Positions 4,437-37,525 of a stretch of 37,525 bases of DNA are shown piece after piece. Under the pieces are notes generated by a model that was not told the origin of the DNA, ran no database searches, and was given only the letters and a program-made list of their open reading frames with translations. Each line of letters starts with the position of its first letter. The stretch's first letter is position 1. Position numbers and translations under genes: made by a program. Source of the DNA: a virus; the IMG/VR virus record IMGVR_UViG_3300001473_000106, positions 1 through 37,525 of that record. One strand, 5' to 3'.

Positions 4437-4958
4437 TCAACAGCCAAAACGAAACCGCTTAATCGGCGTTTCTTTTTCTGGAATAAGTCTTGAAGCCGCA
4501 GCCTCCATCGGTACATCCTTGACCGGCTCAAGAAAGAGCGCAGCCTCTGCAGCACGACGACGTGTCAGCCCTGCAACCTCTTTCAGTTTCCCGTTCACGC
4601 GCGCCTTATTCCACCATTGTAACGCTTCTGCGGCGCCAATGCGGTCGCCCTTATTAAGCCGACGCAAAGCTGTCGAACGCCGAAGCCCGCCTGTATTGAA
4701 TTCAAATGAAACCAACGCGTCGAATTCGTTTTGATTCAGCGGGACGCCAATATGCAGGTTAACGACGGCTTCACGCGGTTTCAGATCATCGCGCAAAGTC
4801 TGTTCCGCCCGCTCCGGCGTGATAAACTTACCCGGCCCTACTTCCGGTCCCGTGTGCCCGTACCCAATGGTCCATACACCGGCAATGTCCTCATAAGCTT
4901 TGAGTTCGCGCCCCTCGAATTCCTTGATGAGTGCGATACCGCGGTCGGAAGTTCTCAT
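4437..4958 (-). CDS. Endolysin, GH24 lysozyme (T4/P21 type)
   Basis: The 173-aa protein is a glycoside hydrolase family 24 muramidase that cuts the MurNAc-GlcNAc bond of peptidoglycan. The catalytic triad spacing Glu-8-Asp-5-Thr is exact: E15 (KEFEG), D24 (AYEDIAG) and T30 (VWTIGYGHTG). The conserved central part (NQNEFDALVSFEFNTGG) and the WNKARVNGKLKEVAGLTRRRAAE motif follow. I chose the ATG at 4958, which overlaps the tail-spike stop as TGATG, over a GTG one codon earlier. No N-terminal signal-arrest-release segment is seen, so it probably needs a hole-forming holin. A C-terminal extension of about 30 residues beyond the GH24 fold has no visible domain. Confidence 0.93.
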   Translation of the reverse strand: MRTSDRGIALIKEFEGRELKAYEDIAGVWTIGYGHTGPEVGPGKFITPERAEQTLRDDLKPREAVVNLHIGVPLNQNEFDALVSFEFNTGGLRRSTALRRLNKGDRIGAAEALQWWNKARVNGKLKEVAGLTRRRAAEAALFLEPVKDVPMEAAASRLIPEKETPIKRFRFGC

Positions 4959-9582: not shown

Positions 9583-11324
9583 AGATCGAGCGCCACGATG
9601 GAACGCAAAGAAACGCCGCGATCACCGGAGGAAATCGACTTGCGTACCGAAATCGCCTTTTTGGTTTCGTCGAGCCCGAGGCGGCCGGCAACGATTGCGC
9701 CGCCGGACCCCGGCGCCATGGGCAAGAGTTGCAAACCGGTTTCCTCGTCGAAGAATGTTTTTCGCAGTTTCAGATAGGCGAGGAGTTTGTCTGCGGCTTT
9801 CTGCGCATCCGCAGGGTCGACAATATAGGTCTCAATCGGCCCATAGCCTTCATCATTATCGCCATCGACAGGGTCCGCATGACGGAGCAGCACCGTCGCA
9901 TCTTCGGCCGTGACAAGCTGATACTCCCGTTGCGCGAAAGCGGCGTTTTCCGGCGTGACCGAGGGGTTATCGAGGGCAATCTCATCAGCGTCCAAAGGCG
10001 TCCAGTTGCGCGCCGCCTTGAACGATTGACGCCAACGCGGCGGCTCGTCAAAATTGTCGGGATCAAGATTTTTTATGTCGGCGCGGTCGAGGGTCCAGGC
10101 TCCCTGCTCAAACGTGTCTGCATTAATTGCGCCGACGCCAAGACGACCGTCCGCAAACTGTCCGTAGTGACCGTTATACGGACGCAGGATGCCGTTCATC
10201 AATTGCGCTATTGTAAAGCTCTGAGTGCCGTCGAGATAAATGCCGATCGCGTAATCCTCGAGCACACCCAGCGAGCCGGTGTTGACGACGATGTCCGGCA
10301 AACCGCCGGGACCGCGCCAAAGCCAAGAAATGATATTTCGCGGGAACGCTGAGTAAACGCCGAACAGTGTCGAGCCCTGAACGTCCATGGTCAGCGAGCC
10401 GACCGGTTCGGCGCCGGTGCGGACTAGCGATAGCGCAAGACAGGTAGCGTAGGCGCCGGGCGCAATCGTGGCAAGTTGCAGCGACGTAAAATCTGGATAG
10501 TCATTTCCATCGAATGCCAGCGGAACGCGACTGTCATACACCGCTTCGACTGCGTTTGATGGCCCGGTTGAGAAGCGAAAAGTGTTTGACGCGTAAACAA
10601 GCGTCACCGGCGTAACGTTCGGACACCGGCCGAGCGCCATCGGGTAAATCTGCCCTGCAAGATTCGCGTCGCCACGCTCCCCGCCTGTTCCATTGAAGCG
10701 CCCGCGGACGACCGGCGCGTCGAGAAGGTCCCCAATATTTTCCAGTTCGAGATCCGTTTGCTCGAGGCCGGAGGTCACAGACCGCCCGCGCGCCTTCGCC
10801 GCAAGCGCCCAATCGCTCGAATATCCACGCGCCAGCCCGACATCGATCCGGACGGATTGACCATCAATGGAACGTTCGAACGGATAATCATCAAGCGCCC
10901 CGTCGTCGTTTATGAGACTCACGCGGGCGGTGAACGTAGAAAGACGTCGATCTGCTTCCGGCAGATAGGGAACCTCGGTCCGAATGTCGTCAATTTCGTC
11001 AACGATCGGGATTGCCTCGGAATGCGCTGCGCCAAAATCATCAGGCCAACCGCACCAGGCGCCGTCAGACGCGAAAAGAATTTCGCTCGGACCCTGACCC
11101 TGCAATTCGCCGGACGCGGAAGCGATGTCGATCGCCGCGATATCGCTTTCCTCATCAAGATCAGGACCGCCGCCATCGATACGGCGCGATGCGATTGTCG
11201 CGAAGAAAATCACCGGATCCTCGTAGCCGCGCAAAAGGCGCGTCAGAAGATTATCGGCGACCGCCGTTCCTTCATCAGGATCCCCGGCGATTTCGACCTG
11301 GGCGACTTCGAATCCGAGGGTCAC
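9579..11324 (-). CDS. Tail-tip/baseplate protein following the tape measure, 581 aa
   Basis: The gene starts within the ATGA overlap at the tape-measure stop, the usual place of distal-tail or tail-hub proteins in siphoviruses. The sequence contains several segments consistent with hub-like beta domains: STFTARVSLINDDGALDDYPF near residue 130, which fits a cell-puncturing/hub segment found in siphovirus tips, a central region SIAPGAY-like with repeated AxxL, and a C-terminal part with strands ALRS/IVALDL. No peptidase or lysozyme motif is seen. I infer that it forms the cap of the tail tube from which the following two proteins and the spike extend. The exact homologue (Dit or Tal) cannot be decided by eye. 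Confidence 0.65.
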   Translation of the reverse strand: MTLGFEVAQVEIAGDPDEGTAVADNLLTRLLRGYEDPVIFFATIASRRIDGGGPDLDEESDIAAIDIASASGELQGQGPSEILFASDGAWCGWPDDFGAAHSEAIPIVDEIDDIRTEVPYLPEADRRLSTFTARVSLINDDGALDDYPFERSIDGQSVRIDVGLARGYSSDWALAAKARGRSVTSGLEQTDLELENIGDLLDAPVVRGRFNGTGGERGDANLAGQIYPMALGRCPNVTPVTLVYASNTFRFSTGPSNAVEAVYDSRVPLAFDGNDYPDFTSLQLATIAPGAYATCLALSLVRTGAEPVGSLTMDVQGSTLFGVYSAFPRNIISWLWRGPGGLPDIVVNTGSLGVLEDYAIGIYLDGTQSFTIAQLMNGILRPYNGHYGQFADGRLGVGAINADTFEQGAWTLDRADIKNLDPDNFDEPPRWRQSFKAARNWTPLDADEIALDNPSVTPENAAFAQREYQLVTAEDATVLLRHADPVDGDNDEGYGPIETYIVDPADAQKAADKLLAYLKLRKTFFDEETGLQLLPMAPGSGGAIVAGRLGLDETKKAISVRKSISSGDRGVSLRSIVALDL

Positions 11325-28519: not shown

Positions 28520-29116
28520 CTAAGCCGCTTTGGAAACGCTGTCAACGCGAAGCTCGACAAAATTCTTTTTTCCGACCGCATCCCAAAGTACCGACACCAG
28601 ACCGTCCCTGACCTTCTGAGCGGTAAACCTCAATCCTCGCAAAGGCCCTTCATCAACCCGAACAAGATCGCCGGGCGCAATGCCCGTGTCGCTATTCGAA
28701 GAAATTTCTTTGAACGCGCCGTGGCGTTCACGACTTGCGATCGCCGCCAACTGTCGCCGCGAGATCGATACTGGCCGATCGCCTTCACAGATTACGCTAA
28801 GCACGAGCCCGCTCTCAAAGAGCGAGAGCCAAGAAAGCGACCCCGGCGCAACGAAAATATATGACGTGAATACCGCGCAATTCGTTGGAACGTGGCGAAG
28901 TTTCAAGCCGCGTCCAATCTTTTTCCGTCGTGACTGTATCGGGCAGTAAACGCCAGCGCCCATCATCATCAAACGAGCGCCCGTCTCAACCTCTTTCATC
29001 GTCCAGACGCGCGCGATGAACCACTCATGGAAGCCCGAAAGCGCAGTCCCATCAGGGGTAGCGTTCTCCATGAAGGTTACGATGCGATCGAGTTCTTTCC
29101 GACGCCGGAGGCTCAC
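28520..29116 (-). CDS. NusG-family transcription elongation factor, phage paralogue
   Basis: The 198-aa product has an N-terminal NGN-like domain (about 31-125; HEWFIARVWTMKEVETGARL, GVYCPIQSRRKKIGRG, SYIFVAPG), which in this family binds the RNA polymerase clamp. The C-terminal KOW domain is at about 147-175 (APGDLVRVDEGPLRGLRF). RfaH, LoaP and UpxY are specialised NusG paralogues that act on particular long operons. A similar role as antiterminator of the late block that starts right behind it (HNH, terminase, head, tail, lysis; about 25 kb in one direction) is inferred. The start is GTG overlapping the initiator stop (GTGA). A 19-residue N-terminal extension precedes the NGN domain. Confidence 0.88.
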   Translation of the reverse strand: MSLRRRKELDRIVTFMENATPDGTALSGFHEWFIARVWTMKEVETGARLMMMGAGVYCPIQSRRKKIGRGLKLRHVPTNCAVFTSYIFVAPGSLSWLSLFESGLVLSVICEGDRPVSISRRQLAAIASRERHGAFKEISSNSDTGIAPGDLVRVDEGPLRGLRFTAQKVRDGLVSVLWDAVGKKNFVELRVDSVSKAA

Positions 29117-30024
29117 GCCGCATCCTCCGTTTGCTGATTTTCCTTGGCTGGATCTACGTCGCCAGCCGATGACTTTCCCCCGACCTCAACAGGGTTCGCT
29201 TTGCGCCAGTCGATCAACGTCTGACATCGAGCGCGTACCCGTTCGCCAAACCGTTCGCGCTCAAGTTCGGCGATGATCCGGCGAACATCGTCGATCGGTT
29301 CTTCGCCGCATGGCTTGCCGTCGAGAATGTCGAACGCCCATTGAGCAAATCCTGCAACCCGTCTGACGGAGGTCGCTGACTGCGTCAGGGCGTAATCCAT
29401 CGCCTCGCTTCCCGAAATCGGAAACCGTTTCCGCTCGCTCGACAGCGCGATCGTGTCCAGCGGTTCCACATCCCCATTCAAAACCCATTTGAGCAAAACT
29501 TTCCGCTCGGCGCGCCGGAGCCGTCGAAGCGCATCGCCCTCAACGCTCGCCTCTTCAGCGCCGCGAGGCGACCCGTCAGGGTCGTCGCCTCGCGCGCGCG
29601 CGGGTTCCCTTAAAGGTTCCCTTACAGGGTTAGTGTCCGGATTCCGGACACGGCTTTTGCCATTTTCCGGACACGGCTCGGGCGATTTTCCGGACACGGC
29701 TTCCGTGTCCGGATTCCGGACACGGCTTTCGCTATTTTCCGGCTCAAACCCGTCCTCGAAAGCGAATTTGTAGTGCGTCGATTTGACTCGGTTCGTCTTC
29801 GCGTCCTTGTCCTTAATCCGCCTGATCAGGCCGCGTTTCACGAGCGTGTTGAGGTGGCAATTCAGCGCCGATCGCGACATCTCGCAATCCGCCGCGAGCC
29901 TTTCCTGCGAAGGAAAGCAGCCACGGTCGGGATTATACCGGTCACAGAGATGCCAAAGAACAAGCTTCGTCGCCGGCTTCATGCCCTTTTGCTGGATCGC
30001 CCAGTTCGTCGCCGCGTGGCTCAT
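29113..30024 (-). CDS. Replication initiator with N-terminal winged helix-turn-helix
   Basis: The N-terminal third (about 1-75) is a winged HTH of the type found in phage O-like and plasmid initiators: LVLWHLCDRYNPDRGCFPSQ, then a recognition helix (SRSALNCHLNTLVKRGLI). A low-complexity linker (about 98-145) contains repeated SRVRNPDT and PVREPLREPARARG. It is encoded by iteron-like DNA (29633-29727), so the linker is probably there to carry the origin. A C-terminal helical domain (about 165-275) would bind a helicase or loader. In lambda the origin likewise lies inside gene O. It overlaps both neighbours by ATGA/GTGA. A function as initiator is supported by fold and iterons, not by biochemical evidence. 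Confidence 0.78.
   Translation of the reverse strand: MSHAATNWAIQQKGMKPATKLVLWHLCDRYNPDRGCFPSQERLAADCEMSRSALNCHLNTLVKRGLIRRIKDKDAKTNRVKSTHYKFAFEDGFEPENSESRVRNPDTEAVSGKSPEPCPENGKSRVRNPDTNPVREPLREPARARGDDPDGSPRGAEEASVEGDALRRLRRAERKVLLKWVLNGDVEPLDTIALSSERKRFPISGSEAMDYALTQSATSVRRVAGFAQWAFDILDGKPCGEEPIDDVRRIIAELERERFGERVRARCQTLIDWRKANPVEVGGKSSAGDVDPAKENQQTEDAA
29633..29727 (+). repeat. Iteron array in the initiator gene, candidate origin
   Basis: The word TCCGGACACGGCT occurs four times at 29643, 29666, 29689 and 29715 (steps 23, 23 and 26). Two copies are extended into palindromes: GTGTCCGGATTCCGGACAC at 29633-29651 and a 23-bp perfect palindrome at 29703-29725. All lie in the linker-coding part of the initiator gene, as the lambda iterons lie in gene O. 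Spacing of about two helical turns fits cooperative binding. An adjacent short repeat GGTTCCCTTA is at 29603 and 29616. Confidence 0.7.
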
Positions 30025-31031: not shown

Positions 31032-31253
31032 CTATGGGGCGAGGAATGTAAAGAGTGCGAGTAAGGCCGAAATCGAAACCGCAACGGTCGCGAATGTTCG
31101 GCGCAAAAGATGCGGACGTATGCCCGCAATTGGAAAACCGACGGCGCAGGGCGGGGGAATTGCGGGCGCGCCGTCGGTTTTCTCTTCCGCCGGACGCGGA
31201 AATTTCAAGATTTGGCCGCGAGCGGACGATGATATCGCGCCGCGACAGGTCAT
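31032..31253 (-). CDS. Small membrane protein behind the Cro-like gene, 73 aa
   Basis: The ATG at 31253 overlaps the stop of the Cro-like gene (ATGA). The C-terminal 20 residues form a hydrophobic helix (VAVSISALLALFTFLA), preceded by Arg-Arg; the N-terminal part is Pro/Arg-rich (GQILKFPRPAEEK). This predicts a C-tail-anchored inner-membrane protein with the N-terminal two thirds in the cytoplasm. No family is recognised. A role in host takeover is possible because it lies in the immediate-early part. Confidence 0.6.
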   Translation of the reverse strand: MTCRGAISSSARGQILKFPRPAEEKTDGAPAIPPPCAVGFPIAGIRPHLLRRTFATVAVSISALLALFTFLAP

Positions 31254-31444
31254 GCGGCGTCACTCTCAAGCTCGGCCAACCTCTCGAACGCGCGCTCGAG
31301 TGTTCGAACCGTGCACTGCCTTCCGTCCTTCAGACGGCCAAGCGTTTTGCCGTCATTGAAAAGCTTTTTCGATACTGTCGAGATCGTAAGCCCGGTTTCG
31401 TCGGCGTAATTTTCGGCACGAGAAATGAGTGTTGGGATATTCAT
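31250..31444 (-). CDS. Cro-like regulator, 64 aa
   Basis: The protein reads MNIPTLISRAENYADETG and then TISTVSKKLFNDGKTL, a helix-turn-helix-like segment at about residues 11-35, followed by TVRTLERAFERLAEL. The short HTH design, the divergence from the repressor and the position at the start of the leftward operon fit a Cro analogue. The ATG at 31444 is chosen over the GTG one codon earlier. The probable -10 region ends only about ten bases before the ATG, so the mRNA may be leaderless. The gene overlaps the next by four bases. Binding specificity is not known. Confidence 0.7.
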   Translation of the reverse strand: MNIPTLISRAENYADETGLTISTVSKKLFNDGKTLGRLKDGRQCTVRTLERAFERLAELESDAA

Positions 31445-31453
31445 CACACAACC

Positions 31454-31483
31454 CTAATTGGGTTATTTCCCAATTTCTGTCAA
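31454..31483 (-). promoter_or_regulatory. Leftward early promoter
   Basis: On the minus strand a perfect TTGACA lies at 31478-31483. The -10 candidate at 31454-31459 (AATTAG, 18-base spacer) is weak, and CAATTA with a 17-base spacer is the alternative. The first operator lies in the spacer/-10 area, so bound repressor would block it. The start of transcription would be about three bases before the Cro-like ATG. The TTGACA is certain, the -10 is not. Confidence 0.55.
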
Positions 31484-31534
31484 GGGGTATATCCCAAGTG
31501 CGAATAATGCCGAATTGTGGGAATACTCCCCACA
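31457..31534 (+). promoter_or_regulatory. Immunity operators: three GGG-N6-CCC palindromes
   Basis: Three sites share GGG-N6-CCC: ATTGGG-TTATTT-CCCAAT at 31457-31474, AAGGGG-TATATCCCAA at 31482-31497, and TGTGGG-AATACTC-CCCACA at 31516-31534. The centres are 24 and 35 bases apart. A half site TTGGGATATT lies at 31432-31441 in the Cro-like gene. They fill the space between the divergent repressor and Cro-like genes, as lambda OR1-3 do. The same word occurs twice at 34379-34422. Confidence 0.75.
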
Positions 31535-32196
31535 TGTTTGACGAAGATTCGATTGGCGGCCCCGAGCGAATAGCCAAGCGGCTGCTTCCACGCTTGAGAG
31601 AGCTCGACCTTCGAAACAAGCCGACTTCGGACGAAGCGGGACTGGGCGACAGCTATGTCCGTGATATCACGCAGCGGAAAGGGGACGGCTCACCGCGAGT
31701 GCGGGACCCAGGATACACAAAGCTTCGAAAGCTAGGGGCGGTTATCGGACGCAGTCCGGCTTGGATCATGGGAGACAGAGAGAATCTCACCCCAGCGGAC
31801 ATAGCAGCCGACGCCAAAGGTACGAACGCAGACAGTAGCGCTAGATCCCTAACGTCAGTTCCTCACAACATTTCTGTAGAACAGATGGTTGAGGCAATTA
31901 CCTTCGGCGCGAACGTCCTTGGGGGATGTACAGAAACGCCTGATAAACTTGAAATACAGCTTAAAACGTTAATGATTTTTATTCGTCATGAAGACACAGA
32001 CGAACCCGAATATGAACGTATTAATCGCATCCTCGGATCCGTTGAGCAATTGCTTCTAAATGTTGTGCCAAACCCTCCTTTAGAGACTGATCCGGCTTTC
32101 TCTCGTATTCAACATGTCGCACTGCATCTTCTAGAAATCCTAGCTCTGGCGGGGTCGGCTTCCCCCGCTCCTCAGGCTTCCTTGAAAGCTGTATAA
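31534..32196 (+). CDS. Phage repressor, XRE-type HTH without S24 domain, 220 aa
   Basis: The N-terminal domain (about 1-85) contains the typical alphaproteobacterial-phage repressor HTH: KPTSDEAGLGDSYVRDITQR, then RKLGAVIGRSPAWIMG. I chose the ATG at 31534 because it starts directly before the HTH helix; the upstream ATG at 31507 would place the third operator in the coding region. No clear ribosome site precedes either. The C-terminal 130 residues are helical and Leu-rich (HVALHLLEILALAG) with no Ala-Gly cleavage motif or Ser-Lys dyad of LexA/CI peptidases, so RecA-dependent self-cleavage is not expected. It probably binds the TTGGG-N6-CCCAA sites at 31457-31534 and 34379-34422. Confidence 0.8.
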   Translation: MFDEDSIGGPERIAKRLLPRLRELDLRNKPTSDEAGLGDSYVRDITQRKGDGSPRVRDPGYTKLRKLGAVIGRSPAWIMGDRENLTPADIAADAKGTNADSSARSLTSVPHNISVEQMVEAITFGANVLGGCTETPDKLEIQLKTLMIFIRHEDTDEPEYERINRILGSVEQLLLNVVPNPPLETDPAFSRIQHVALHLLEILALAGSASPAPQASLKAV

Positions 32197-32455
32197 TTTC
32201 TGCATCATGCGGGGGAATTGTGGATAAGCGAAACAGCAAATCCACCAAAAATTTCGTGTACTGACGTTTATCCGCCAAAGTAATCCCCGGCGCGCCGGGC
32301 GCGCATCAAAATTTCGTTAACAATACGAAAGTATCGCGCGATCGCAACCATCGAGACGCTTAAGAGCGGCGAAACGTTAACGAAAATTTTACGGACACGA
32401 ATGAAACCTTAACGCGCGGCAATTTCCGCCGTTCGCGCTTAAGGAGAAATCTCTG
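32197..32455 (+). other. Non-coding gap between repressor and moron genes
   Basis: No convincing gene is seen. A 14-bp GC palindrome, CCCGGCGCGCCGGG, lies at 32286-32299 but without a T-run. AT-rich words (AAAATTTCG, CGTTAACG) are frequent near 32310-32400. AAGGAG stands eight bases before the ATG at 32456. A promoter for the moron genes may lie here; I see no clear -35/-10 pair. Confidence 0.4.
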
Positions 32456-32845
32456 ATGTCTGTCGATGCTCGAAAACTGCACGCGAAACTGCTTCGCGCC
32501 GAAAAAACGGCAATCGCCGAATCCGAAAACTTTCGCAAAGGCAAAGCCTTAACTTACGGCGGCGTTGCGGCCATTGCCGCTGGCGTGACGGCCAGCGCAA
32601 CCCAAGCAGCCGAAACACTTGGGAGTGACGCCCCTGTTGAGTGGGCTGCAAAACTGCAATCTGTAGTAGAGGCTGCGCACGAAACACCCGCGCACATGCT
32701 CGGGGCGGTTTACGAAACGCTGGTAAACGGCCATGCTGCCCTTGAGGGTGTGGCGATTGACGCCGGCGCTCGCCTTTTGCCCATGGTGAATGGTGTGCCG
32801 AAACGTCAAGTCGAATTGGTATGGACGAATTTGGGTCTATTCTAA
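32456..32845 (+). CDS. Membrane-associated protein of unknown function, 129 aa
   Basis: ATG at 32456 follows AAGGAGAAATCTCTG, a strong ribosome site. A charged N-terminal helix (ARKLHAKLLRAEKTAIAES) precedes a short Ala/Gly-rich hydrophobic segment (about 33-52, GGVAAIAAGVTASATQAAE) and an amphipathic C-terminal region. It overlaps the next gene by 25 bases, so the two are a pair. The high Ala content (20 percent or more by eye) and lack of motif leave function open. Located in the prophage accessory block between repressor and operator region, it is a moron candidate for phage exclusion or host modification. Confidence 0.6.
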   Translation: MSVDARKLHAKLLRAEKTAIAESENFRKGKALTYGGVAAIAAGVTASATQAAETLGSDAPVEWAAKLQSVVEAAHETPAHMLGAVYETLVNGHAALEGVAIDAGARLLPMVNGVPKRQVELVWTNLGLF

Positions 32846-33486
32846 ACCTAGACGCCGGCGTTCAGCAGGCCTTGCGTATTTATGGCCTGCTGGTCGGCGC
32901 AACTCTTTTGGTTTCGGTCCTTTCGAAAAGCCGCGTGATGGCCCTCTCCGGCGCCATCATTAGCACGGGGTGGTTGGTTTCGGTCCTCATTTACTTGACG
33001 CTTCGCGACAACGGCGGGCCCGCCCTCGCCCTTCAAGGGATCACCGTCGCGTTCGTATTTTACTGGATTTGGCGGGGCGCAGCAGAGCACAACGCTTGGA
33101 TTTTTCGTCACCTCTTTTGGATACATGCAGCGTATGGCGTTGCCGCCGGGTATAGACTGTTCGGGGAATTGTTTTTCCCGGACACGATGATTGCGCAATA
33201 TTATCTGCAAATGTGGCTGCAGAACCGCCTATTCGACATAGCCCTATTATATCTATTCACCGTATCTGTTGCGCGTATTTGGCTCACGCGAGAGCGATAC
33301 TTTCAGCCAAAGCCCCGCAAAACACATGAACACAAAATTCGCTCCAACGCGGGCCCGGTGTGGTTGCGGAATTTCTTCATCAGAATATCAAACGCAGACA
33401 AGCCCGACGACGAACATATTCCTTTAACGCCGGAAACGCCGAAGGAAAGCGCGAGTTTGAAGCGCCAACCAGTTTCGAAGGAGTGA
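32821..33486 (+). CDS. Polytopic membrane protein of unknown function, 221 aa
   Basis: Five hydrophobic helices are predicted by eye at about residues 18-36, 39-61, 67-86, 95-118 and 134-155, with a hydrophilic basic C-terminal tail (residues 160-221, including PKPRKTHEHKIR). Aromatic residues and Arg/His cluster at the membrane faces (FYWIWRG, FRHLFWIH). The ribosome site is weak and the start overlaps the preceding stop by 25 bases, so translation is probably coupled. Together with the 129-aa partner it could form a membrane complex. A role in superinfection exclusion is plausible but not shown. Confidence 0.65.
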   Translation: MDEFGSILNLDAGVQQALRIYGLLVGATLLVSVLSKSRVMALSGAIISTGWLVSVLIYLTLRDNGGPALALQGITVAFVFYWIWRGAAEHNAWIFRHLFWIHAAYGVAAGYRLFGELFFPDTMIAQYYLQMWLQNRLFDIALLYLFTVSVARIWLTRERYFQPKPRKTHEHKIRSNAGPVWLRNFFIRISNADKPDDEHIPLTPETPKESASLKRQPVSKE

Positions 33487-33523
33487 AATAGCGCATTGGG
33501 GCCGGCTTTTTCGATTGTGGGTT

Positions 33524-34285
33524 TTAATCTTCGCGAATTCTCATCGAGGTAAGTCCATCGAGTTCATGAGTTTCAATAATATGGGATATGTCAGTTCGAA
33601 GATCGGAAATGTCGGATGATCCGTGCAGTATTTGAATGATGTTGTCGACCGCTTCTTCTATAATTCCAGTGACCTCGTTGTACGCGGCGATGTCCGCATG
33701 TATTTTTTCGCTATTCGCACTTAAGATACTCAATAGATAAAGTAGCTCAGACCAACGCTCGTTGAACAAATCGTCAAGCGGTTGCAATATTGCAGCCGCG
33801 CGTTTTGCTTCCGCGTCGATTGCGTCATCAATACCGACTACTTCGGTCAAATTTTGTTTTGCTAACGCTAGCGATTCCGCCAAGCGGATGCGATGCTGGC
33901 TTGTTGCTTCAAGAAACCGATCATTCAATGCGATTTCGTGCTGATTGCTGAGTTCCTTAATTTTTGAATTCTTCGACGCAATTTCATCGTTCAATTCCTC
34001 TATCTCACGCGCACGATCTTCATCAAGCTTGAAAGGCGCGACGACGATGTTGAAAATAAACGTCAGCACGATGGCAGCGGACACGCCGTATGCCGCCGCT
34101 ACCCACAGCGACCACTTCTCAACAGCGAACGCCATATTGCCGCCCAGGTAAAGGGCGAAGATCGCCACCAATGTAGTGACAACGCGTATCACCCATTTCC
34201 CCAATGGTTCGGGCTTGAACGCCTTCCAGGTGTCCAATACGGATCGCCTGAACACCCGCCACTCATAGATAAGCCATTTGCGCAT
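33524..34285 (-). CDS. Membrane protein with long coiled coil, 253 aa
   Basis: Two transmembrane helices are predicted at about residues 30-53 (WVIRVVTTLVAIFALYLGG) and 60-82 (LWVAAAYGVSAAIVLTFIF), followed by a long heptad-rich region (about 88-215: EIEELNDEIASKNSKIKELS and NQHEIALNDRFLEATSQHR). The topology predicts both ends in the cytoplasm, with the coiled coil inside. It is oriented opposite to its neighbours, has lower GC than the structural genes, and lies between the moron pair and the rightward promoter. The family is not recognised. Such proteins occur as prophage exclusion or stress factors; this is inference from location. Confidence 0.65.
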   Translation of the reverse strand: MRKWLIYEWRVFRRSVLDTWKAFKPEPLGKWVIRVVTTLVAIFALYLGGNMAFAVEKWSLWVAAAYGVSAAIVLTFIFNIVVAPFKLDEDRAREIEELNDEIASKNSKIKELSNQHEIALNDRFLEATSQHRIRLAESLALAKQNLTEVVGIDDAIDAEAKRAAAILQPLDDLFNERWSELLYLLSILSANSEKIHADIAAYNEVTGIIEEAVDNIIQILHGSSDISDLRTDISHIIETHELDGLTSMRIRED

Positions 34286-34378
34286 CCGATCTTCATGAAC
34301 GGAGTCCGTGTATCGAGTCGATTCTCAGCGGTCATGCGAGGACACCTTCAAACCGGTATCGACGCAGATAGCACAGTT

Positions 34379-34422
34379 TTGGGTTTTGTCCCAATTATTT
34401 GTTGACTTGGGTTTTGTCCCAA
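34379..34422 (+). promoter_or_regulatory. Two TTGGG-N6-CCCAA operators at the rightward promoter
   Basis: Exact copies of TTGGGTTTTGTCCCAA lie at 34379-34394 and 34407-34422, 28 bases apart. The same inverted word, TTGGG-N6-CCCAA, occurs in the immunity region at 31457-31497. The second copy lies in the spacer of the promoter at 34402-34430, which fits repression by occlusion. Confidence 0.8.
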
Positions 34423-34430
34423 CTTATCGT
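34402..34430 (+). promoter_or_regulatory. Rightward early promoter TTGACT-17-TATCGT
   Basis: TTGACT at 34402-34407 and TATCGT at 34425-34430 are exactly 17 bases apart, with the operator between them. Transcription would run into the gene at 34456 and through xis/int. The -10 element has four of six consensus bases. Confidence 0.7.
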
Positions 34431-34455: not shown

Positions 34456-34770
34456 ATGCTCGACGATTACCGATCAGTTGCTATGAGCCCAAATGAAGAC
34501 TTGAAAAACGCCATCGCGATGCCGACACCGGCAAATGACACCGGCGAAAACATTGGCCGCCCCAACCTCCTCGCCCTAAAGGCTGCGATCGAAGAGGCCA
34601 TGATTGCGGTCGGCGACATTCGCCAGGAAGCAATTCGGCAAGCGCGAACGCTTGCAGCGGCCGGCCTCGACGACAACGAAGCCCTTCGCGCCCTCGCAAT
34701 CGCTGAACGGAACCTTGCAGCCGCCATGGGCGAAGCCACCGCCGCACTTACGAATCGAGCCCGCGCATGA
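34456..34770 (+). CDS. First gene of the rightward early operon, 104 aa
   Basis: I chose the ATG at 34456 because GGAGAA lies seven bases upstream and the promoter -10 ends 26 bases before it. The protein is helical and soluble, with a Pro/Asn-rich N-terminal part and a long C-terminal helical region (EEAMIAVGDIRQEAIRQARTL). No motif is recognised. The stop overlaps the next micro-gene (ATGA). Confidence 0.65.
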   Translation: MLDDYRSVAMSPNEDLKNAIAMPTPANDTGENIGRPNLLALKAAIEEAMIAVGDIRQEAIRQARTLAAAGLDDNEALRALAIAERNLAAAMGEATAALTNRARA

Positions 34771-36145: not shown

Positions 36146-36357
36146 GCGGTTTTATTCCTCGGCATAAGGACTTTCAGCTCGCGCATCGTTGCGCCGAAAC
36201 CATTAATTTTGAATGGGCGCAACGGGGCGTGCGCGCAAATGCGCGCCTGAATAGCAAAGCGGAAATTCTGTCGGACCTAACGCCGGCAATGATTCGCGTG
36301 CCGCCGCCGGTTATGAAAGCGATCAACATGCTCGGGCCTGAAGGGAAAAGCGAATGA
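36142..36357 (+). CDS. Hypothetical protein, 71 aa
   Basis: The ATG overlaps the previous stop and the stop overlaps the next start. The product is basic and helical in the first half (HKDFQLAHRCAETINFEWAQRGVRAN), with a proline-rich segment (IRVPPPVM) near the end. No motif is recognised. Its coupling to the excisionase-like gene places it in the integration module. Confidence 0.6.
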   Translation: MSGFIPRHKDFQLAHRCAETINFEWAQRGVRANARLNSKAEILSDLTPAMIRVPPPVMKAINMLGPEGKSE

Positions 36358-36686
36358 CAGCGCCAACAGTATGCAGCCCGTCACAACTAGCCGCCCGATG
36401 GCAGATTTCGCGGGAGGTTGTGTATAAAAAGGTGAAAACTGGGGAATACCCGTCCTTGCCGGGGCGTCCCGTGCGCATACCGTTGGCCTTTGTAGAAAGT
36501 ATGGAGGCCGAAGCATGCGTCTCGTCAGACATCGCGGCAAGTGGGCCGTCCGCGTCAACGGCCAAAGATACTCAACCGGATTCGAAGCCACGCCGGAGAA
36601 CCGGACCGCCGCGGAAGGGCGAGGGCATGAAATTCACGCCAGGGAAAGCCGCCGGCACCGTGGTGAAGTTTGCGGCGACATCGTAG
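36354..36686 (+). CDS. Putative excisionase, HTH, 110 aa
   Basis: Residues 8-52 (SPSQLAARWQISREVVYKKV ... PSLPGRPVRIPLAFVESM) form the MerR/excisionase-like HTH (HTH_17 type) that binds DNA near attP and directs excision. The position directly upstream of the integrase is standard. The frame continues for 57 codons into the integrase gene, giving a 172-base overlap; the C-terminal half (SGPSASTAKDTQPDSKPRRR) is low-complexity and probably non-essential. The ATG overlaps the previous stop. No test of which gene tolerates the overlap is possible here. Confidence 0.75.
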   Translation: MTAPTVCSPSQLAARWQISREVVYKKVKTGEYPSLPGRPVRIPLAFVESMEAEACVSSDIAASGPSASTAKDTQPDSKPRRRTGPPRKGEGMKFTPGKAAGTVVKFAATS

Positions 36687-37525
36687 CCGCCTATTTCGCC
36701 GACATGCCGTTTCGAACGGTTCCGAAGACGCCATCGTCAGGCGCTCGGGACGCTGCGCGGCGGGTCCTCGAATCTTTCTCCGACCTGACCGACGCTGACA
36801 TCACCCGCGAGCATTGCCGGCAATACACCGCAATGCGCCGCGACCAGGGCTATTCCGACGGCACCATTCGCAAGGATCTGTCGACGCTGCGCGCCGCGCT
36901 GCGATGGAACGATCCGCAAAGCCCTGCCGTTTTCGAGATGCCGGCGATGCCGCCGCCGGAGGACCGATGGCTGCGCCCCGAAGAGATAGAAGCCCTGCGC
37001 GCCGCGGCATTGTCGCGCCCACACGCAGCGATCTTCATTGAACTGGCGATATGCACGGGCGGACGCAAAGAGGCCATTCTCGGGCTGACATGGCAAACCC
37101 ATATCGATTTTGACGCACGCCGCATCTGGCTCGGCTTCAAGGAAGGCGGCAAGAAACGGGCGACCGTCCCCATGACCGAAACCTGCCGAAACGCGCTCAT
37201 CGCGACGCAGACCCGATCAATTACGCCCTTCGTCGTCGAGTATAACGGCAAGCGCGTCGGAAACATTCGAAGGGCGCTGCGCGCCGTCTATGACGATGCG
37301 GGGATCGAGGACGTTCGATATCCTGCCCATGTGCTGCGCCATACGGCCGGCACGATCATGGCCAATGCTGGCGTGCCGATGTTCGAAATTTCCCGGCGCC
37401 TTGGCCACTCCTCAATCCGCGTCACCGAACAGACCTACGCCCACACCCATCCCGACTATATGAGCGCGTCAACGGAAGCGCTTGAAAGGGTCGGGCCCTC
37501 GGTACACCCGTACCGAACACCGTGA
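36515..37525 (+). CDS. int: Tyrosine recombinase integrase, 336 aa
   Basis: The ATG at 36515 has GGAGG seven bases upstream, deciding the start although it lies 172 bases inside the excisionase frame. The N-terminal arm-binding region (RHRGKWAVRVNGQRYSTGF), the core-binding helices (about 77-130) and the catalytic domain are all present: Arg184 (ICTGGRKEAI), Lys213/214, His272-x-x-Arg275 (HVLRHTAGT), His298 (RRLGHSS) and nucleophile Tyr308 (TEQTYAH). It would carry out integration and, with the excisionase, excision. The stop codon is the last base triplet of the window, so attP or attR must lie just outside. Rightward transcription comes from the promoter at 34402. Confidence 0.95.
   Translation: MRLVRHRGKWAVRVNGQRYSTGFEATPENRTAAEGRGHEIHARESRRHRGEVCGDIVAAYFADMPFRTVPKTPSSGARDAARRVLESFSDLTDADITREHCRQYTAMRRDQGYSDGTIRKDLSTLRAALRWNDPQSPAVFEMPAMPPPEDRWLRPEEIEALRAAALSRPHAAIFIELAICTGGRKEAILGLTWQTHIDFDARRIWLGFKEGGKKRATVPMTETCRNALIATQTRSITPFVVEYNGKRVGNIRRALRAVYDDAGIEDVRYPAHVLRHTAGTIMANAGVPMFEISRRLGHSSIRVTEQTYAHTHPDYMSASTEALERVGPSVHPYRTP

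Follow-up and report, generated by a model that had tools for sequence, protein, structure and literature searches.

In phages lambda and 434, immunity is built on a repressor gene and a Cro gene that diverge from a gap with three operators, and on a second operator array at the other early promoter. The viral record IMGVR_UViG_3300001473_000106 of IMG/VR was analysed over its whole length of 37,525 bp (hereafter the window), which includes terminase, portal, head and tail genes. It carries the palindromic word TTGGG-N6-CCCAA in the gap between a putative repressor gene and a divergent Cro-like gene, and again at a promoter 2.9 kb away, which raises the question of whether this locus encodes a switch of the same kind. 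Our analysis indicates that five words are very probably the operators of a lambda-like lysis/lysogeny switch, bound by the repressor encoded at 31534-32196.

Probable operator words at both early promoters

The full word has exactly three matches in the window (31458, 34379 and 34407) and none in 100 dinucleotide-preserving shuffles of it; the word is thus not as frequent in shuffled sequence. One copy lies in the repressor/Cro gap and two at the distant promoter. The three GGG-N6-CCC palindromes that a sequence-only reading of this DNA had placed in the repressor/Cro gap are all found within its 86 bp. O1 (31458-31473, TTGGGTTATTTCCCAA) is an exact word and occupies the spacer of PR, the leftward Cro promoter. 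O2 (31482-31497, AAGGGGTATATCCCAA) is a weaker copy immediately upstream of the PR -35 element, 24 bp from O1, and O3 (31517-31532, GTGGGAATACTCCCCA) is a weaker copy 35 bp from O2, which stops 1 bp short of the repressor ATG. O2 and O3 are each mismatched at 2 of the 10 word positions. The two copies of the second, left operator (OL) array, distal (34379-34394) and promoter-proximal (34407-34422), are 28 bp apart and both read TTGGGTTTTGTCCCAA, the exact word. Of the three gap palindromes, O1 alone is thus a complete 16-base word. The shorter form GGGN6CCC is concentrated at the same places, since 5 of its 9 matches in the window fall inside the two gaps: three in the 86-bp repressor/Cro gap (at least three were reached in 61 of 20,000 shuffles) and two in the gap of 170 bp that precedes the gene at 34456 (reached in 11 of 20,000).

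The promoter elements at the second array were found as proposed. PL (34402-34430, plus strand) consists of TTGACT (34402-34407), a 17-bp spacer that holds the proximal operator, and TATCGT (34425-34430), and could be aligned with the PL of 16 other loci. The Cro promoter PR follows the PL design on the opposite strand, with the word placed after TTGACA (31478-31483, minus strand), and TTGAC is found at the equivalent place in relatives. At PL and PR alike the operators overlap promoter elements. The promoter that had been called rightward is the counterpart of lambda PL, on the int/xis side, and PR is the leftward Cro promoter.

Related phages found through the word

We scanned viral contigs for the tandem word and for TTGACATTGGG-N6-CCCAA, which returned several immunity regions; Rhodobacter phage RcapNL was reached through the homology of its CI protein to that of locus L162, not through the word. 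Six phages (L004, L006/L009, L162, L163 and RcapNL, our L164) carry words with the GGG-N6-CCC core at each of the two places, one of the copies lying in a promoter spacer, so that the scan of related phages suggested as a check of the sequence-only reading gave a positive outcome. L004 has the repressor, a Cro protein of family phrog_7669, words in the gap and a word pair beyond the repressor. Candidatus Rhodobacter lobularis and a relative (L006/L009) carry an imperfect TTGGG-N6-TCCAA in the gap, and their pair on the far side of the repressor is exact. Both arrays are present in L162 and L163, which were read out from L135 and L140. In the cultured phage RcapNL (NC_020489), GGGAAACATCCC and GGGAAACTTCCC stand in the repressor/Cro gap, and past the repressor follow GGGATGTATCCC/GGGATTTATCCC at a distance of 29 bp; its predicted operators are at 4871/4895 and 6309/6338 of L164. 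No operator is annotated in its record, and the phage has been described as not characterised in depth (PMC8601537). The start of its CI gene is probably misannotated, as an in-frame ATG 57 bp upstream (L164 4944-5001) adjoins the third operator, the arrangement seen in relatives. At the Cro promoters of RcKemmy and RcOceanus, which have Cro homologues, no operator-like words were found.

Very many short tandem arrays with TTGGGN6CCCAA at regular spacing were also observed in Oscillatoria-type and other cyanobacterial loci (L017-L134), apparently an unrelated repeat family. The genome-wide scan for the tandem word was swamped by these Oscillatoria intergenic repeats and was otherwise little used.

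A conserved scaffold in a sample blind to the word

Because these phages had mostly been found via the word, we also sampled by Cro homology alone, blind to the word. In the family of the host of L109, 29 of 296 genomes had a Cro match, and in its class 38 of 385. The distances between repeated dyads were analysed in 31 Cro-upstream regions, made up of the family sample, the phages to which the word had led and the window itself. A lag of 24 bp was found in 9 loci (0.1 expected) and one of 35 bp in 7 (0.08); lags of 23 bp (6 loci, 0.1 expected), 58 bp (6 loci, 0.08) and 59 bp (4 loci, 0.04) were likewise recurrent, while in shuffles of these regions no lag above 12 bp occurred in more than 2 loci. 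Counted from the Cro start, the dyad sites lie near -26, -49 and -84 and TTGAC separates the first two, and the ATG of the divergent repressor lies near -88 to -93 in most loci. The relatives thus keep the position of O1 at about -26 from the Cro ATG, an O1-O2 lag of 22-25 and an O2-O3 lag of 35, with O3 adjoining the repressor start there too. The window sites, at -27, -51 and -86, fit this scaffold exactly, from which it follows that the weaker copies O2 and O3 are real members of the array. The words themselves vary by phage and include GGG-N6-CCC, TAGG-N6-CCTA, CGG-N6-CCG, GGAC-N4-GTCC and TCGG-N8-CCGA, among others. As judged from sequence, the scaffold is constant while the word differs between phages, and the window represents one operator type in a diverse alphaproteobacterial set.

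The second array was then sought with each phage's own gap word, assigned by eye before the search, as pairs elsewhere in 25 loci. A pair of own words at 28 or 29 bp was present in 16 of the 25 loci (0.6 expected from shuffles) and, among the loci not found through the word, in 11 of 20 (0.6 expected). Seventeen PL contexts could be aligned, 16 with the pair at 28/29 bp and one, L214, at 31 bp; in all 17 the promoter-proximal copy follows a TTGAC-like -35 element, which in the window is the one at 34402, and L266 has a third copy a further 34 bp away. These pairs show that the sharing of a single operator word by the two early promoters is a general trait of the set and not peculiar to the window. 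The lambda-like layout with two arrays (OL/OR) that had been proposed is therefore supported by the word-blind sample, with its fixed scaffold of three sites at PR and a PL pair made of the same word.

Two further features were observed at these loci. In eight phages (L004, L006, L162, L163, L164, L197, L207 and L214) a stem-loop of 6-9 bp, of the type CCTC...GAGG, lies where the PL transcript presumably begins, a short way upstream of a start codon, its 3' arm containing a GGAGG-like Shine-Dalgarno sequence in several of them; it may serve ribosome-site masking or antiterminator binding and was not evident in the window. Sinorhizobium phage phiLM21 (NC_029046, L312) has candidate operators GTAGCG-N5-CGCTAC at 9911-9962 and 11215-11264: two copies at a lag of 35 lie past the repressor, and a degraded form lies in the 92-bp repressor/Cro gap. 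With up to 2 mismatches allowed, the word matches 4 times in a 30-kb stretch, against 1.1 expected. A 2025 study of phiLM21-like prophages did not find lambda- or 16-3-type operators and noted this as unexplained (PMC12429752).

The repressor and the Cro-position protein

The repressor (31534-32196, plus strand) has an N-terminal helix-turn-helix (HTH) of the AGLGxSxVRDI type and a C-terminal half predicted, with low confidence, to be helical. It gave no significant Pfam or PHROG match, and no S24 peptidase domain was recognised in it, so that RecA-stimulated self-cleavage (SOS induction) is not expected. The LexA/S24-type C-terminal cleavage domain typical of lambdoid repressors is thus missing here, and an S24-type C-terminal half is present in the RcapNL and L162 repressors on a similar DNA-binding domain; the window repressor appears to share the operator-reading helix of S24-type CI proteins. 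The Cro-position protein (31250-31444, minus strand; 64 aa) belongs to the phrog_7669 family (E=1e-9). It was modelled by AlphaFold2 (AF2) as four helices with a predicted local distance difference test score (pLDDT) of 92, and its best PDB matches were HipB, 434 repressor, C.Esp1396I and 434 Cro, with template modelling (TM) scores of about 0.5-0.6 and E-values that were not significant; its predicted fold may resemble that of lambda-repressor-like HTH proteins. Peptide patterns and tblastn revealed no close relatives of either protein in IMG/VR or phage records. Hidden Markov models built from the relatives with the window left out recovered the repressor N-terminus (E=1.8e-6) and the Cro protein (E=9e-8), each as the sole match among 578 open reading frames (ORFs).

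Operator half-site similarity correlates with similarity of the repressor N-termini (r=0.31, p=6e-4, n=30) and still does so once similarity of Cro is controlled for (r=0.22, p=0.004), while the correlation with Cro given the repressor is weak (r=0.08, p=0.11). The window helix AGLGDSYVRDI matches AGLGTSAVRDI of RcapNL, AGMGESGVRDL of L202, AGMGESGIRDL of L207 and AGVSYDFVRDI of L004, and all four of these phages have GGG-N6-CCC-type words. In a search that started from repressors, RGG-N6-CCY was found upstream of 8 of 16 repressors with a VRD[ILM] helix and of 1 of 11 others (Fisher p=0.03), with 13 sites against 3.06 expected. The loci L284-L303, found repressor-first across Alphaproteobacteria with neither a Cro nor a word filter, encode XRE repressor-like proteins, many with NETAVRDI helices; in several cases ATGGGATAATTCCC-like sites lie beside or near their own start codon.

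The genes around the switch are arranged as follows. On the PL side, the first gene of the operon (34456-34770, plus strand), to which no function was assigned, is followed by an excisionase-like HTH protein (36354-36686, plus strand; weak match to phrog_66, E=0.0077) and a tyrosine integrase (36515-37525, plus strand; PF00589, E=5e-21). On the PR side are an O-like replication initiation protein (29113-30024, minus strand; phrog_345, E=1e-23) and a transcription antiterminator family protein (28520-29116, minus strand; phrog_6386, E=4e-13). Three genes without clear known families separate the repressor from PL (32456-33483, 33524-34285). Two of them run in the direction of the repressor gene and are candidates for expression in the lysogen; the third is on the other strand.

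Weighing of the alternatives

Several observations weigh against reading the words as operators of this repressor. GGGN6CCC is common in GC-rich DNA such as this and shows no window-wide enrichment (9 matches, 6.1 expected); the comparison with shuffles thus favours the gap clusters and not the core by itself, and the case rests on the full word, its clustering and the comparison with relatives. The PR -10 element near 31454-31460 is weak, poor relative to the sigma-70 consensus, and a simple promoter scan did not call PR. The AF2 model of the window repressor is too poor for use. The Mantel signal is modest, and we gave up the idea that the word is explained by the recognition helix alone, as opposed to the entire N-terminal domain (partial Mantel p=0.08). 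The loci are partly related, so that the counts overstate their independence, and some Cro homologues have no clear array by the methods used. The tests support the repressor as the reader of the word, though they are weakened by shared ancestry.

If the divergent ORF were not the main reader, the words might be read mainly by the Cro-position protein, which no other neighbour exceeds in conservation and for which a small, helical structure similar to lambda-repressor-like HTH folds is predicted with confidence. However, words differ widely among phages that keep recognisably homologous Cro proteins, word similarity follows the repressor and not Cro when each is controlled for the other, and O3 adjoins the repressor start, as autoregulation would predict; we consider this explanation unlikely. 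It is very improbable that the words act as RNA hairpins or weak terminators: a terminator scan does flag both OL copies (a 5-bp stem, then T-rich sequence), but these copies are placed either in the -35/-10 spacer or a little upstream of a -35 element and are thus largely untranscribed from PL, and in relatives the promoter placement is kept while T-runs and stem sequences vary. Binding by a host regulator, which would couple the phage to host physiology, seems hardly more than conceivable, since the word changes from phage to phage along with the phage's own repressor, a pattern that could not be put down to a single host regulator; repressors of this helix type are nevertheless widespread in alphaproteobacterial genomes, some with similar upstream words, and cross-talk is possible. 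That the repeats reflect chance, composition or a dispersed repeat like those of Oscillatoria would agree with the missing window-wide enrichment of the core and with the tandem repeats of another kind in cyanobacteria. We regard it as extremely improbable given the clustering in two gaps, the exact spacings kept across different words and the same-word pairs at the second promoter.

Proposed mechanism

The proposal that the five words are operators of the phage's own repressor builds directly on the observed words (how many there are, how they are spaced and where they lie) and on the conservation of the scaffold in relatives; the repressor as binder, its dimerisation, cooperativity and autoregulation, and any looping between the arrays are what we infer. 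The repressor, probably a dimer placing one recognition helix on each GGG/CCC half-site, would bind O1, O2 and O3 between the divergent genes and the two PL operators 2.9 kb away. With O1 and the proximal OL copy occupied, the -35/-10 spacers would be covered and PR and PL shut off, which would silence Cro, replication and the antiterminator on one side and the path towards xis/int on the other. O2, at two helical turns from O1 on the same face, would support cooperative occupancy, and O3 would probably limit the repressor's own synthesis. In lytic growth the Cro-position protein would compete for the same sites. The quality of the matches fits this mechanism, with exact words at O1 and both OL sites and weaker ones at O2 and O3.

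Relation to known immunity systems and significance

The window is like lambda and 434 in its gene layout, its three gap operators, its second array, the position of O1 in a promoter spacer and an O1-O2 distance of about 24 bp, and the 4-6-4 geometry of its half-sites resembles that of the 434 operator. It differs in the O2-O3 distance, which is about 23 bp in those phages and 35 bp in the window set, in a PL array made of a pair at 28-29 bp, in the operator word, in the phrog_7669 Cro and in a repressor without S24 domain. From its sequence, the window region appears to have the features of the lambda-type layout except the cleavable C-terminal domain of its own repressor. RcapNL shares the scaffold, GGG-N6-CCC-type gap words, the PL pair at 29 bp and the CI helix, whereas its CI has an S24-type C-terminal half and the outer bases of its words differ. 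For the C repressor of Rhizobium phage 16-3, operators oL1, oL2, oR1 and oR2 have been named (PMC12429752). Phage 16-3 is like the window phage an alphaproteobacterial temperate phage with left and right operators, two right operators being named there and three found here. Its operator word, presumably of the ACAA/TTGT type, is different. The novelty relative to lambda-type immunity lies in these specific spacings, in a Cro of family phrog_7669 and in words that can be exchanged; a description of this operator architecture was not found in the openly searchable literature, subscription literature being outside the search.

The operators of alphaproteobacterial temperate phages are largely unmapped. 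The chances seem to us about even that a large set of these phages shares one rigid scaffold (PR O1-24-O2-35-O3; PL pair at 28-29 bp) in which the words are exchanged together with the matching repressor DNA-binding domains. If this is true, immunity groups would be predictable from sequence alone, and a conserved Cro-family protein must somehow read all the different words. The conserved spacings offer a word-independent route to find operators and to pair them with their repressors, and they give direct, cheap binding predictions for the window phage and the cultured RcapNL. The repressor/word pairs thereby form a natural series for the study of how immunity specificity evolves.

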